Positions 29,407 to 34,691 of a DNA stretch of 64,000 nucleotides are shown here, piece after piece. The notes beneath the pieces were generated by a model. It was not told the DNA's origin. It searched no databases and saw only the letters and a list, made by a program, of their open reading frames with translations. The stretch is from an uncultured cyanobacterium (lineage in GTDB: Bacteria; Cyanobacteriota; Cyanobacteriia; PCC-6307; Cyanobiaceae), in the NCBI GenBank assembly GCA_903858015.1, contig CAIOGZ010000077.1, positions 124,001-188,000 on the forward strand, read 5' to 3'. Position 1 is the stretch's first letter. Each line of letters begins with the position of its first letter. The position numbers and the translations under genes are program-made.

Positions 29407-30174
29407 TCAGGCCAAGGGCCGATCCAACTGGCGCATCTCAGCCGCCAGCGCCTGCCGCTGGTTCAAGAAAGGCCTTGAAAGGCGAAGGCCGGCCAAATCG
29501 GAGCCGTCATGCTCCACCACCAGACTGCGCACGATCCGACCGGGGCGCGGCGCCAGGATATGGATCTGCTGGGCTAGCAATAGGGCCTCCTCAATGTCAT
29601 GGGTGATCAACAAAATCGAAAGGCCCGTTCGGCACCAGAGGTCGTGGAGAAATTCCTGCATCGACTCACGAATCTGTAGATCAAGGGCGCCAAAGGGTTC
29701 ATCGAGCAGTAGCAATTGGGGCTTGGCCGCTAGGGCGCGGGCGATCGCTACCCGCTGCTGCATACCACCCGAGAGTTGGCGTGGCAAACAGGCGGCCCAA
29801 TCACTGAGGCCCACCACCTGGAGGAAGAAGGCAGTGCGATCGCGAATTTCCTGCTTGTCTAAGCGCTGCAATTCCAAGCCGAAAGCCACATTCTGGGCGG
29901 CGGTAAGCCAGGGATAGAGGCTGTACTTCTGAAACACCATGCCCCGCTCTGCGCTTGGTTTGCGAATCGGTTGGCCATTGAGGCTGAGGCTGCCGCTGCT
30001 GGGTTGGTCCAGGCCCGCCACCAGCCGCATCAGCGTGGACTTACCTGAGCCGGAGCTACCCAAGAAGGCCACAAACTGGCCGGTTTGCATCGTGAAACTG
30101 ATCCGATCGAGCACCAGGGATGCCTTGCGCCCCTCCCCAAAGCTTTTACTCACCTGATCAAGGCAGAGTTCCAT
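29407..30174 (-). CDS. ABC transporter ATPase of the guanidine operon
   Basis: 255 residues, TauB/SsuB/NrtD class. Walker A GSSGSGKST (about 38-46), signature LSGGMQQRVAIARAL (about 135-149), Walker B LLLLDEPFGALD, and the H-loop ITHDIEEAL. It powers import by the permease encoded 5 bases upstream. It is the last gene of the six-gene operon behind the guanidine-I riboswitch and matches, by position, the transporter of the Synechocystis gdmH locus. Substrate specificity for guanidine is inferred from operon context. Confidence 0.9.
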   Translation of the reverse strand: MELCLDQVSKSFGEGRKASLVLDRISFTMQTGQFVAFLGSSGSGKSTLMRLVAGLDQPSSGSLSLNGQPIRKPSAERGMVFQKYSLYPWLTAAQNVAFGLELQRLDKQEIRDRTAFFLQVVGLSDWAACLPRQLSGGMQQRVAIARALAAKPQLLLLDEPFGALDLQIRESMQEFLHDLWCRTGLSILLITHDIEEALLLAQQIHILAPRPGRIVRSLVVEHDGSDLAGLRLSRPFLNQRQALAAEMRQLDRPLA

Positions 30175-30179
30175 GGAAA

Positions 30180-30971
30180 TTAGTTAGCCCAAGCGCAGCT
30201 GCGGCGCATCAAGAAACGAAAACCGAGGTCTATCAAAAGCCCAATCAAGCCGATCACGATTAAACCAAGAAAGATCTGATCGGTACGCAGAAATCTCTGG
30301 GCTAAACTGATGCGCTTACCAAGGCCTGCATCGGCGGCAACCAATTCGGCAACGATCACCAAATTCCAGGCAGCAGCCATATTGATCCGATAGGCGTCCA
30401 GGACTTGGGGCGCGATGCAGGGAGCGATCACCCGGGTGAGGAGATCGCTTCGGTGGCCGCCAAGAGTAAGGGCGGTTTCAAGCAATTCAGGCGGCACGAA
30501 CTTGACAGCGTCCATAATCATCAAAGCATTAAAGAAAAGGGTGCCGATAAAGATCAACAGAATCTTCGGCAATTCTCCCAAGCCGAAATAAATGATCAAC
30601 AGGGGGATGAAAGCCGGCGCTGGCATATATCGCAGCAGAGCCAGTAGCGGCTCCAGCAGGCGGCAGATCGTGGTGCTAGAGCCCATGGCGATACCCAGGG
30701 GCAGGGCCACCAGGGCCGAGAGGCCAAAACCGCCCAGTACCCGCATCAAGCTGGCGGCGATATCAGTCCAGAGCTGTCCTGCGGCCAGCTCCTGCTGGCC
30801 AGCCGCCAGCACCGCCCAAGGACTTGGCAGAAACAAGGGATCCACCACCGCGGCTGCCGCCACCGCCGCCCACAAGCCGAACAGCAGGATTAGCCCGCTC
30901 AGCCCCAACGCCCAGGGCTTCAGCAACAGGGTTTGCAACTGCCGTTTCAACGGCAGGTTGAGGCTTGGCAT
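30180..30971 (-). CDS. ABC transporter permease of the guanidine operon
   Basis: 263 residues, about six membrane helices, TauC/SsuC family. The EAA-type cytoplasmic loop that contacts the ATPase is ELLETALTLGGHRSDLLTRVIAPCIAPQVL (about 170-200). The N-terminus has a hydrophobic anchor (WALGLSGLILLFGLWAAVAA). It ends 5 bases before the ATPase start and begins 71 bases after the substrate-binding protein stop. It forms the membrane pore of the putative guanidine importer. Confidence 0.9.
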   Translation of the reverse strand: MPSLNLPLKRQLQTLLLKPWALGLSGLILLFGLWAAVAAAAVVDPLFLPSPWAVLAAGQQELAAGQLWTDIAASLMRVLGGFGLSALVALPLGIAMGSSTTICRLLEPLLALLRYMPAPAFIPLLIIYFGLGELPKILLIFIGTLFFNALMIMDAVKFVPPELLETALTLGGHRSDLLTRVIAPCIAPQVLDAYRINMAAAWNLVIVAELVAADAGLGKRISLAQRFLRTDQIFLGLIVIGLIGLLIDLGFRFLMRRSCAWAN

Positions 30972-31042
30972 GGAAGCGGAAGCGGTTGGAGGGTCAGCGG
31001 CGCCTGGGTCCGCGGGGAAGGCAGCGGCGCGGGGGCAATGAA

Positions 31043-32059
31043 TTAGTTGGCCGCCTCGACGAAGCGTGCCTCAAGCAAACCATCCAGCTTTGGTGCCGTC
31101 TTCGCCAGACCCACGGCCTGGAGGAAGCTGCTGATCTGGACGGCGGCATAGGGCAGCGACGTCATCGTCTTGCCGGCCTGGAAAGCCCCACGGTTCTGGG
31201 CTAAGGAATAAATCGTGGTGCCGGAGTCATAGGCCCTGTAGTCGGCTTCGCTGACGCCGGCCCGCTTGGCCAGGATCGAAAGGGAGGGGCCAGGATTGGC
31301 CTTGATCTCCCGCAGGGTGGCGAACCAGCTATCGACAATCCGCTGGATCTTTTCGGGGTTCTTGGCCACGAAGCTGCGATTACAGACCAAGTGGTCGCTG
31401 ATGGCGCCGGGAAAATCGCGGGAACTGAACAGGATCTTGCTACCTGGTCGTTTCAGGGCCTGGCTGGTGAAGGGGGCAAAGACGCCAACAGCGTCCACCT
31501 TCCCAGCCACGAAGGCGGCGGCGGCGGCTCCGGTTTCAAGGGGCACAAAGGTGATGTCTCTTTCGCTGAGGCGAGCCTTGCTCAATCCTAGGAGTAACAA
31601 GTAATGATCTACAGTCCCCTGCTCGGCGGCCACTGTCTTGCCCTTAAGATCGGCAACGCTGCGAATCCCCGGTGCTGCGATGATTTGATCATTGCCAGAG
31701 GAGATGTCATTGGTGAGCACCACCTGCAGATCAGCCCCCGCAGCAAGCGAGGAAATCGTGTCACCCAGGGTCTGGCTATTACAGTCGAGTTGCCCCGCAT
31801 TGAGGGCATTAATTGAATCCAAGTAGCCATCAAACCAGGTCAGCGAAACCGGCACACCAGCGGCCTTGAACATGCCCCTCTCCTCAGCCACCTTCCAGGG
31901 GAACCAGCCCGGCCAAGCGCTATAGCCAATCCGTACCGGACCATCAAGCGCTGATCGGTTGGCTTGGCGGCAGCCCGCCAGGCTTACTGCAAATAAAAGC
32001 ACTATTAGCAGCGCAAAAGGGTAACCCAAGCGGCTATTAGAGGGCTTAAAAAGGTTCAT
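31043..32059 (-). CDS. ABC transporter substrate-binding lipoprotein of the guanidine operon
   Basis: 338 residues from the ATG at 32057-32059, which gives a lipoprotein signal: basic start, hydrophobic stretch (LIVLLFAVSL) and lipobox LAGC at about 24-27. A longer reading from 32107 adds 16 residues in front of a good signal and is unlikely. The mature part is a NMT1/TauA-type binding protein (VRIGYSAWPGWFPWKVAEERGMF, then LKGKTVAAEQGTVDHYLL). It would capture the substrate in the periplasm. There are 131 bases between hypB and this gene, enough for an internal promoter, though I see none. Confidence 0.88.
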   Translation of the reverse strand: MNLFKPSNSRLGYPFALLIVLLFAVSLAGCRQANRSALDGPVRIGYSAWPGWFPWKVAEERGMFKAAGVPVSLTWFDGYLDSINALNAGQLDCNSQTLGDTISSLAAGADLQVVLTNDISSGNDQIIAAPGIRSVADLKGKTVAAEQGTVDHYLLLLGLSKARLSERDITFVPLETGAAAAAFVAGKVDAVGVFAPFTSQALKRPGSKILFSSRDFPGAISDHLVCNRSFVAKNPEKIQRIVDSWFATLREIKANPGPSLSILAKRAGVSEADYRAYDSGTTIYSLAQNRGAFQAGKTMTSLPYAAVQISSFLQAVGLAKTAPKLDGLLEARFVEAAN

Positions 32060-32190
32060 CGCCAAGGATTCACTGGGAAGGTTGCGGAGGGGTGATTTCA
32101 GGTTCATGTTGACATGGTGAACACAGCGTGGCTTGGGGTCAGTCGTCGGGGGTGGTTAGGTTTTTGCATTGGTTCGGACGATGGTGTTGC

Positions 32191-32925
32191 TCAGCCCTGG
32201 GCAGTGGTAAGGGCTGGGCTTGGCATCGGATTCGCCAGGGGAAGCGGCCCCTGGTGCTTGGCAAGCTGTTGCCACAGCCACTGATGCCAGGCCTTGAACC
32301 CCTCACCGCTACTAGCCGAAAGCCGCAATACAGTGCAGCGGGGGTTGACCTGGTGAATATGGGCCTCAATCCGATCGACGTCGACCGGCAGATAGGGAAG
32401 TAGATCGATCTTGGTGATCAGCACACAATCAGCCTCCCGAAACATTACAGGGTACTTCAGCGGTTTATCGTCTCCTTCAGTGACACTGAGTAGGGCCACC
32501 TTCAGGTGCTCACCAACCTCAAACTCGGCCGGACAAACGAGGTTGCCCACATTCTCCACCCAAAGTAGATCAAGCTTGGCGGGATCGAGTCGCTGGCAGA
32601 GTAGCTTTAATCCACCACTCACCATGCCAGCATCTAAGTGACAGCACCGGCCCGTGGTGATCGGCACCACCGGTATCCCCAGCGCCCCGAGTCGATCGGC
32701 ATCGAGCTGGGTGGTCATGTCCCCCTCCAGCACCGCCATCGCCAAATCGCCGGATAGTTGGGCCAAGCTCCGCTCTAGCAGAGAGGTTTTACCAGCCCCT
32801 GGGCTACTCATGATATTGAGACAAAGCAACCGCCATTGATCGAAATGTTCACGGTTATGGCTGGCTTGTTGTTCGTTAGCCGCTAGCAGGTTGAGGCCGA
32901 GATTGTCTTGCAGGGGCATGTGCAT
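32191..32925 (-). CDS. hypB: HypB-type nickel GTPase, probable guanidine hydrolase accessory protein
   Basis: 244 residues. P-loop SPGAGKTS (about 41-48), switch-region [19 protein letters not shown], metal-site candidate [11 protein letters not shown], base-recognition region [13 protein letters not shown] and [10 protein letters not shown]. HypB proteins deliver nickel with HypA, normally to NiFe hydrogenase. Here there are no hydrogenase genes; the gene sits 5 bases after hypA and behind a guanidine hydrolase. In Synechocystis the equivalent pair matures the Ni-dependent enzyme GdmH (published knowledge). No N-terminal poly-His nickel store is present. Confidence 0.92.
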
Positions 32926-32930
32926 GGCGG

Positions 32931-33299
32931 TCAGGGGCTGGGGGTGGATAGGTCGTAATCAACACTTCGAATCCGCAACTCACGGCCGTGGATGATCTCC
33001 TCCATCGGATGGGAGCAGCAGGGGGAGCGATAGCCCTGCTCCGCCTGCGGGCTATAGGTGGCCATGCAGCCCAGGCAGCGGCCCAGCAGGGGAACCGTCA
33101 CGATCAGCAGCCGCGCCCCCGAGAGCCAGGTATCGCGGATGGCGGCGTTCCAGCTGAACTGCAGTTGATCGGGTTCAACGCAGGTGAAGCTGCCCACCTC
33201 CAGATGGACGCTGCCGACCCGGGGTAGCTGGGGTGCATGGCCCTGCTTCCAAGTCTCGAGCGAGCGCAGCAGGGCCCTGGTCATGTCAACTTCATGCAT
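32931..33299 (-). CDS. hypA: HypA-type nickel chaperone, probable guanidine hydrolase accessory protein
   Basis: 122 residues. The nickel site is at the N-terminus (MHEVDM; Met1-His2-Glu3). The zinc site is formed by CLGC (about 86-89) and CCSHP (about 105). The start codon is 3 bases after the gdmH stop, so expression is tightly tied to it. It would hand nickel to HypB or directly to GdmH. Without hydrogenase or urease genes in the window, GdmH is the natural client (inference supported by the published Synechocystis system). Confidence 0.92.
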
Positions 33300-33302
33300 C
33301 AG

Positions 33303-34499
33303 CTACCTCCAGCGCTGATCAACTTGCATGTTGCATCTGCTGCTGAGCCAGGCCGGTGGCTGCTGCCGCGGCAACTGCCCACTGACCACCAAATGACCCA
33401 TGGTGTCGCAGATCACGCGGGTGGCCATCAGGGAGGTCATGTCACTGATGTCGTAGGGCGGCGATACCTCCACCACCTCCAAACCGCAAACAGGCACATT
33501 GCGCACGATCAATTCCAATAACTTCAAAGCCTCCCTAGGCAGCAGTCCCCCCGGTTCGGGCCAGCCCGTACCCGGAACGAAGCCGGCATCGATGCAGTCG
33601 ATATCAAAGGAAATGTAGACACAGTCCGTACCATCAGTGGCGCGCTCGATCGCATAGCGGGCCGCCGCCTCCAAGCCCATGTCACAAATGTCGGTGACCG
33701 TGAGCACATTGGTGCCCCGCTCCCTGCACACCTTGACGCCTTCGCGCGGCACCTGCCAGCCGCCAATCCCCAGTTGCACCAGATTTTCTGCCGGAGCGTT
33801 GGCCATATTGGTGGCATGAAACCAGGGGGTGGTGTGCATGCGCTCATCGAGATCCGTTTCCTGGGTATCAACATGGCGGTCAAAGTGGATGATGCCTACT
33901 TTCTTATCCCCGAGGTGGCGGCATACACCCCGCAACGTAGGGAATCCGATCGAATGGTCGCCACCGAGGATAATTGGGAAAGCCCCACTAGCAAAAACGT
34001 GCGCAACTCCTTTGGAGATTTGATCGAAACTCTTTTCGTTATTAGCAGGGATTGTAAAGATGTCACCGACATCGCAAAGACTAATTTGCTCACGCAGATC
34101 CACACCCATCTCGTAATTGTAAGGTGTGTAAAGGGCCGAAATGCGGCGTATTCCCTGGGGTCCGAAGCGGGTTCCCGGGCGGTAGGTGGTGCCGCTGTCA
34201 TGGGGTACTCCAAGAACTGCCACATCAAATTCGCCAACTCTGTTGACGTCTTCGATGTAAGGAGCCTTCATGAATGTATTAATTCCGGCGTAATGGGGCA
34301 ACTCACCACGCGAGAACGTTGATATGCGACGATCGACGATACTTTCGGCAGCCTCAAGACCAAAACGCTTAGCTTGTTCTACCTCCTGCTGCCAGCCGGT
34401 GAGGGGGAGCTTGGCTTCTTTTTCTAGGGCCCGCAACCCTTCACTAGGGTGAAGGCGATCAAAAGCGTCCCCAGGGGATGCTGGAATTGATTGGTCCAT
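33303..34499 (-). CDS. gdmH: Guanidine hydrolase (Ni-dependent, ureohydrolase family)
   Basis: Hydrolyses guanidine to urea and ammonium. 398 residues: a ureohydrolase fold with an N-terminal extension of ~85 residues absent from ordinary agmatinases. Metal ligands are visible in GGDHSIG (about 178-184), HFDRHVDTQ (about 204-212; in agmatinase this is usually HxDAHxD) and SFDIDCIDAGFVPGTG (about 293-308). General annotation would be agmatinase (speB). The nickel chaperone genes downstream, the ABC importer and the guanidine-I riboswitch in its 5' leader identify it as GdmH rather than an arginine-pathway enzyme. First gene of the operon. Confidence 0.93.
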   Translation of the reverse strand: MDQSIPASPGDAFDRLHPSEGLRALEKEAKLPLTGWQQEVEQAKRFGLEAAESIVDRRISTFSRGELPHYAGINTFMKAPYIEDVNRVGEFDVAVLGVPHDSGTTYRPGTRFGPQGIRRISALYTPYNYEMGVDLREQISLCDVGDIFTIPANNEKSFDQISKGVAHVFASGAFPIILGGDHSIGFPTLRGVCRHLGDKKVGIIHFDRHVDTQETDLDERMHTTPWFHATNMANAPAENLVQLGIGGWQVPREGVKVCRERGTNVLTVTDICDMGLEAAARYAIERATDGTDCVYISFDIDCIDAGFVPGTGWPEPGGLLPREALKLLELIVRNVPVCGLEVVEVSPPYDISDMTSLMATRVICDTMGHLVVSGQLPRQQPPAWLSSRCNMQVDQRWR

Positions 34500-34520
34500 C
34501 GGAGGAGGGTTGAAGTGTAG

Positions 34521-34634
34521 CGGCCTCCCGGGTTTTTATCCCTCCGTGTCACCGAGTGCCCAGGGCAATCGATGGGATTTCTCTCGGACCAGCCATTCCT
34601 GAATGTCGCCACCAAGGAACCGGAACCCTAGAAA
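34521..34634 (-). promoter_or_regulatory. Guanidine-I riboswitch (ykkC-yxkD class)
   Basis: Reading the minus strand: CTAGGGTTCCG (34621-34631), then a variable hairpin, GGTCCGAGAGAAA (about 34578-34590), a second variable arm, and ACACGGAGGGATAAAAACCCGGGAGG ending near 34523. All three conserved blocks of the guanidine-I aptamer are present in the right order and spacing. It lies in the gdmH leader, ~24 bases before the start codon. Guanidine binding would turn on the operon. I see no intrinsic terminator between aptamer and gene, so control may be translational or use another mechanism (inference). Confidence 0.95.
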
Positions 34635-34650
34635 TCATGTCCGCCAACCC

Positions 34651-34691
34651 ATTTTGTGTCAGGCCAGGTTGGGTGTGGTTACAAGCACTAC
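34651..34691 (-). promoter_or_regulatory. Possible NtcA-type promoter of the guanidine operon
   Basis: On the minus strand GTA-N8-AAC (34678-34691) is followed after 21 bases by CAAAAT (34651-34656). The NtcA-activated promoter consensus is GTA-N8-TAC about 22 bases before TAN3T, so this is one mismatch in the operator and one in the -10, with nearly correct spacing. Transcription would start just before the riboswitch. Nitrogen control of a guanidine operon makes biological sense, but the match is imperfect. Confidence 0.4.

Follow-up and report, generated by a model that had tools for sequence, protein, structure and literature searches.

A predicted guanidine-assimilation operon behind a guanidine-I aptamer and an NtcA-like box in an uncultured picocyanobacterium

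Known systems and the present locus

In Synechocystis sp. PCC 6803, the genes sll1077-sll1082 encode GdmH, GhaA, GhaB and an ATP-binding cassette (ABC) importer and lie behind a guanidine-I riboswitch (PMC8390497, PMC8400943, PMC12186494). The operon is also in print for Limnospira (PMC8400943) and for marine Synechococcus/Cyanobium, where the clusters Syn-eCAG_001 and Pro-eCAG_004 contain the same speB2 (gdmH), hypA, hypB and importer genes, with a ykkC riboswitch ahead of them in the reference genomes of Synechococcus (PMC10119275). The comammox bacterium Nitrospira inopinata has an operon with a guanidine-I riboswitch and a guanidinase, but with an APC permease in place of the ABC importer and no nickel chaperones in the region (PMC11410670). 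Here we analysed a 64-kb stretch of DNA (the window, meaning the whole stretch) from the 3.84-Mb genome, in 100 contigs, of an uncultured cyanobacterium. Six co-directional open reading frames on its minus strand (gdmH, hypA, hypB, and genes for a binding lipoprotein, a permease and an ATPase), preceded by a guanidine-I aptamer, match the six genes of Synechocystis in content and order; the initial annotation had pointed to this shared order, and it is the published one (PMC8390497, PMC8400943). We consider it very likely that the locus is a guanidine-assimilation operon under the control of NtcA and a guanidine riboswitch, with the substrates, the use of nickel, NtcA binding and a translational control step predicted from the DNA. 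As the operon has already been described in cyanobacteria, the present one adds to a known type. Cyanobacterial guanidine assimilation and its riboswitch control are reportedly also the subject of Itzenhauser 2025 (PNAS).

The genes are as follows (nt, nucleotides; aa, amino acids):
33303..34499, minus strand: gdmH, predicted guanidine hydrolase, 398 aa (similarity and key residues)
32931..33299, minus strand: hypA-like gene for a putative nickel chaperone (GhaA type), 122 aa, with an MHE start and CxxC plus SPCC replacing CPxC
32191..32925, minus strand: hypB-like gene for a putative nickel-delivery GTPase (GhaB type), 244 aa (TIGR00073, 272.2 bits, cut-off 121.2)
31043..32107, minus strand: SsuA-family lipoprotein that would bind the substrate of the importer, 354 aa (TIGR01728, 211.8 bits, cut-off 163.5)
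30180..30971, minus strand: ABC permease, 263 aa (PF00528)
29407..30174, minus strand: ABC ATPase, 255 aa (PF00005)

All six were found at the coordinates and in the order given in the initial annotation, and profile searches assign them to the arginase superfamily, HypA, HypB, an SsuA-type lipoprotein, a permease and an ATPase, respectively. The gaps between successive genes are 3, 5, 83, 71 and 5 bases, the first two being the spacings already reported for the first three genes. The extent first proposed for the operon (29407-34634) covers the genes but ends too early, since the aptamer extends to 34642 and the probable promoter to 34691. Calling the operon complete is right relative to Synechocystis, but most relatives carry one or two further genes. 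Below, C-numbers denote contigs of the window's genome, and G- and L-numbers the genomes and the loci that were compared.

GdmH is predicted to be a guanidinase

Among the best 60 of 70 structure matches to GdmH, the closest solved relatives are 7esr/7oi1 (E 2e-227, 758 bits), recorded as probable agmatinase 2, which we take to be the Synechocystis guanidinase. Residues 11-398 of GdmH align to residues 5-392 of this chain, i.e. over nearly the full length and with the N-terminal part included, and a second guanidinase-type structure, 9fek, matches with E 4.7e-173 and 579 bits. The remaining ureohydrolases in this set have E-values of 9.9e-50 or weaker with alignments that begin at residue 57 or beyond, and its agmatinase structures reach at most 140.4 bits. 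The alignment with Sll1077 and agmatinases that had been proposed as a check sets a near end-to-end match, N-terminal part included, against agmatinases that align only from residue 57 or later, and it does not refute the guanidinase reading.

The window's GdmH has Thr105 and Trp313 at the guanidine-specificity positions, together with His222 and Glu344. The metal motifs noticed earlier were recovered at six positions (H182, D207, H209, D211, D299 and D301), where D301 is presumably the sixth metal ligand. The other five are named as ligands for the Nitrospira guanidinase, for which Thr and Trp at two positions (Nitrospira numbering) are reported to confer guanidine specificity, and T105, H222, W313 and E344 carry the same numbers in the N. 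inopinata enzyme (PMC11410670). For a residue census we used the 118 GdmH proteins with a length of 340 aa or more from 121 sources (the window, 40 loci from other genomes, and 80 further loci, top-ranked among at least 582; some genomes are represented twice). T105, H222, W313, E344 and the metal ligands are invariant in all 118, apart from D211, which is found in 117. From its sequence, then, the window's protein is a guanidinase and not an agmatinase, and is predicted to hydrolyse guanidine and to need nickel.

A leader without a standard terminator

The guanidine-I aptamer that the initial annotation had placed ahead of the genes was confirmed by Rfam: RF00442 matches positions 34523-34642 of the minus strand over the full model length with 79 bits (gathering score 63, E 2.1e-12). 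Nothing else in the 64 kb reaches an Rfam gathering score, and it is the single guanidine-I match in the 3.84-Mb genome. The elements of the leader are as follows:
34678..34691, minus strand: NtcA-like box GTAGTGCTTGTAAC, differing from GTAN8TAC at one position and lying 46 nt ahead of the CTAGGG of the aptamer, at a near-fixed position in relatives
34651..34656, minus strand: -10-like CAAAAT, 21 nt after the box, read from the sequence
34523..34642, minus strand: guanidine-I riboswitch aptamer (RF00442, 79 bits)
34540..34545, minus strand: GGAGGG of the aptamer core, proposed to pair with the anti-aptamer stretch (unconstrained leader fold)
34504..34509, minus strand: CCCTCC, proposed anti-aptamer stretch, whose end is 4 nt away from the start codon (fold; for the window by itself not significant)
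34500-34505 with 34541-34546, minus strand: alternative register, CCTCCG with CGGAGG (fold)

The 3' motif of the aptamer was found in 82 of the 121 sources (65 of picocyanobacterial type and 17 others); three of the 39 sources without it have nil or hardly any upstream DNA. Behind the aptamer, none of the 65 picocyanobacterial leaders, window included, has a terminator motif, as compared to 12 of the 17 others. A test for a hairpin followed by a T-run gave 6 of 64 picocyanobacterial leaders (-9.6 to -13.6) versus 13 of the 17 others (-16.9 to -35.7), and by either test 16 of the 17 others have a terminator. With no hit in the motif test and only weak hairpins in the other, a standard intrinsic terminator after the aptamer was rejected for the picocyanobacterial type. 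The difference from the Synechocystis operon on this point is drawn from the 12 of 17 other cyanobacterial leaders. The start of gdmH, taken as the nearest ATG in frame that is 19 nt or more further on, lies 22-38 nt past the aptamer in 64 of the 65 leaders (L048 has no qualifying ATG). Because a standard terminator is missing, the second control step is probably an opening of the start region, and riboswitch control is probably translational here. The leader is thus a natural short guanidine-I element without a standard terminator and a candidate translational switch.

In the unconstrained fold of the window's leader, GGAGGG (34540-34545) pairs with CCCTCC (34504-34509), 4 nt before the ATG. 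Such anti-aptamer pairing is supported only weakly by comparison with shuffled sequences. Of 50 distinct segments, 6 have p<0.05 for duplex energy (pooled p 4e-4, median z -0.46) and 11 for the longest pairing run. The expected number of core pairs is greater than the mean of the shuffles in 39 of the 50, and 6 of them reach values of 0.05 or less (p 5e-6 in a paired test); kinship is disregarded in the pooled p values. Taken by itself, the window is not significant against shuffles (0.117 and 0.175, the latter for core pairs). Openness rises in 54 of 64 leaders when the aptamer is imposed, a comparison that lacks a control for the constraint and carries no evidential weight. The pairing was not upheld as proof of a translational switch given the weak shuffle support; being significant singly in 6 of 50 segments and not in the window, it leaves the translational step likely rather than proven.

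In seven guanidine operons of Prochlorococcus (L142, L145, L147, L148, L150, L155 and L163), guanidine-I has no match at gathering score, and the riboswitch seems to have been lost there. In L168 (Picosynechococcus PCC 7117) gdmH is placed after the ATPase gene instead of first, and guanidine-I likewise has no match at gathering score.

An NtcA-like box upstream of the aptamer

Promoters activated by NtcA carry GTAN8TAC about 22 nt ahead of the -10 box. We compared 56 picocyanobacterial upstream stretches, from which identical ones were dropped and close relatives kept, so that the stretches are related and the counts non-independent. Upstream of the aptamer all 56 have a box that departs from GTAN8TAC at no more than one position; the share expected by chance is 7% in random windows of the same loci and 26% (14.6/56) when a somewhat longer piece of the upstream DNA is shuffled. 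Exact boxes were observed in 8 of 56, with 0.9 expected. When the scan was confined to 43-50 nt from the aptamer, the box was found at 43-48 nt, with six of six box positions fitting in 47 stretches and five in 9 (T or C accepted at one position). XAN3T is present 22 nt past the box in 55 of the 56, as compared to about 2 expected, and the sequence from box to aptamer is highly variable among these related stretches. Among the other cyanobacterial leaders, 9 of 17 match GTAN8TAC exactly, as compared to 2.6% of random windows, and four of the nine also have TAN3T 22 nt on. From this layout we infer that NtcA may bind the putative box.

Our literature searches, limited to accessible text, found no report of an NtcA box, a terminator-free guanidine-I leader or a glutamine-synthetase-like operon gene, and earlier reports are possible; the novelty of the terminator-free leader and of the NtcA-like box is unproven.

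Nickel chaperones, importer and pathway partners

The HypA of the operon has the N-terminal nickel motif MHE and matches PF01155 with 87.1 bits (cut-off 28.9), but falls under the TIGR00100 cut-off (82.4 vs 88.1). It had been predicted that automatic annotation would call gdmH an agmatinase and hypA/hypB hydrogenase genes; this is borne out for gdmH and hypB, which pass the agmatinase and hypB models, and not for hypA. The HypA zinc site CxxC...CPxC is absent from the protein encoded in the window, which has CxxC...SPCC instead, a difference from the Synechocystis operon that is judged against the CPxC norm. HypA was located in 119 of the 121 sources (window, L032-L071, L098-L177). The changed zinc site, SPCC, is found in 65/65 picocyanobacterial and 32/32 Prochlorococcus-group loci, and CPxC in 21 of 22 other loci, the exception being L114, titled Synechococcus. 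The second HypA of the window's genome, outside the operon, carries CPRC.

The genome also encodes a separate HypA/HypB pair (C47) and the large subunit of a NiFe hydrogenase (C5), so that the HypA and HypB of the operon appear to be extra copies, most likely dedicated to GdmH. Urease alpha (C32) and NtcA (C22, 372 bits) are encoded in the same genome, and on these gene assignments the pathway from guanidine to urea to ammonium is predicted to be closed within it. The best profiles of the importer are of the sulfonate, taurine and urea types; its position in the operon suggests guanidine as the substrate.

Proposed mechanism and alternatives

We propose that the ABC importer would take up guanidinium, that HypA and HypB of the operon would load GdmH with nickel, and that GdmH would hydrolyse guanidine to urea and ammonium, after which the urease encoded elsewhere would split the urea. 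Under nitrogen shortage NtcA would start transcription just upstream of the aptamer, and guanidine bound to the aptamer would then permit expression, probably by opening the gdmH start region. Expression would probably need two signals, nitrogen shortage and guanidine. The urease, NtcA and the NtcA-like box are consistent with the use of guanidine as a nitrogen source, as the initial annotation had supposed. In Synechocystis, the operon goes up in strains that make guanidine (PMC8390497) and down when ammonium is in excess (PMC10094980), the latter agreeing with NtcA control. More tentatively, and with somewhat less than even confidence, we suggest that picocyanobacteria dropped the terminator and placed the aptamer downstream of an NtcA promoter and ahead of the start codon, which makes nitrogen hunger and guanidine both necessary, that the aptamer acts on translation via start-adjacent pairing with its core, and that Prochlorococcus later lost the riboswitch.

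Several observations weigh against this mechanism. The window's own box departs from the NtcA promoter layout by one mismatch and by a 21-nt spacing to CAAAAT, which was read by eye, whereas relatives are more regular; the window is the sole exception of 56 in the 22-nt scan, which missed it because the scan picked another register there. The leaders of relatives are non-independent samples, and the importer carries no family-level mark of guanidine specificity. In addition, the window is among the six leaders with a weak hairpin and T-run (-10.3, then TTTTGAT, in the first gdmH codons), and the weak hairpin of L109 and L116 lies in the leader proper and could be a real weak terminator.

These hairpins, together with the description of guanidine-I as mostly a transcriptional switch (PMC12186494), would fit a riboswitch that still terminates transcription, using a terminator that is weak or factor-dependent and sits within or close to the gdmH start. 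We regard this as unlikely, since the hairpins are confined to six of 64 leaders and are weaker than those of the 13 other cyanobacterial leaders. The upstream box could also belong to another regulator of the CRP family: a C ahead of the final AC, which is closer to the CRP half-site, occurs in 40 of the 56 stretches, and the genome has other, weaker CRP/NtcA-like matches. The exact boxes of the non-picocyanobacterial leaders, with TAN3T at 22 nt in four of them, speak for NtcA and make this quite improbable. That the operon mainly detoxifies guanidine rather than feeding on it is very doubtful: Synechococcus 7942 without the enzyme cannot mitigate guanidine toxicity, and expression of Sll1077 enables degradation (PMC8390497), but here an importer is part of the same operon and an NtcA-like box lies upstream, and ammonium lowers the operon in Synechocystis (PMC10094980). 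An agmatinase operon for arginine/polyamine breakdown with hydrogenase maturation genes adjacent by chance is hardly credible and close to refuted by the sequence: gdmH clears the NCBI agmatinase model TIGR01230 by 0.5 bit (174.8 vs 174.3) and hypB passes TIGR00073, but the far better guanidinase structure matches and the conserved guanidine-specific residues reject this reading of gdmH, a guanidine aptamer precedes the genes, and the genome has a second arginase-family gene (C72) besides the other HypA/HypB pair.

Genomic place and distribution

Riboswitch-led guanidine genes are common in this picocyanobacterial genus: gdmH was found in 30 of 37 genomes, the window's own counted, with a partial copy in one of the 30. 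In 10 of 10 genomes selected from the 37, pgi and leuS are adjacent. The operon sits between these two genes in the window and in G019, and also on the G010 contig. The search for gdmH gave nothing in G021 and G031, and there pgi and leuS abut or almost do so. The remaining six have a pgi-leuS gap of about 0.25-2.0 kb, with gdmH elsewhere. Given this varying occupancy, the operon looks like a block that was gained, lost or moved as a unit.

Operon variants among relatives

Among 56 distinct picocyanobacterial gdmH sequences, 49 have hypB through the ATPase gene on a single contig. In 37 of these 49, hypB and the binding-protein gene are separated by a type III glutamine-synthetase-like gene (in L115 a fragment only), and a Rieske oxygenase gene comes next after the ATPase gene in 35 of the 46 loci having at least 1300 nt beyond it. 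Of those 46 loci, 31 have both genes, 5 the glutamine-synthetase-like gene only, 4 the Rieske gene only, and 6, including the window, neither; the window's operon is thus a shorter, minority form. A Rieske gene is also described downstream in most Synechococcus/Cyanobium genomes with the published cluster, again unlike the window, and the term "glutamine synthetase" does not occur in the main text of that paper (PMC10119275).

The best solved relative of the glutamine-synthetase-like enzyme is the glutamate-methylamine ligase 9qur (2.8e-116). With the Rieske oxygenase, it suggests use of methylated guanidines or methylamine, and the two genes may widen the substrate range of relatives to methylated guanidines. 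The gene was seen inside the operon at L033:5786-7150 and in 20 other loci, and four more distant cyanobacterial loci (L052, L055, L174 and L175) have a similar gene placed between hypA and hypB. In a tree of GdmH with 79 rows, for which Prochlorococcus was thinned and duplicates were removed, the window falls in a seven-row group labelled as without the glutamine-synthetase-like gene (82/87), beside a 15-row group with it (97/93); the label "without gene" is unsafe for early-ending contigs (L124 in the window's group, L070 and L128 elsewhere).

The two Rieske matches of the window's genome sit elsewhere (C44 and C8), and between the C44 protein and one operon Rieske protein only 83 residues were aligned, at 36%. 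The genome's type III glutamine synthetase (C6 9507-10718, L092) shares 41-46% identity with 21 operon copies; at this identity and in its different context, it was rejected as a displaced operon gene. It adjoins an apparent alpha/beta hydrolase gene (by eye).

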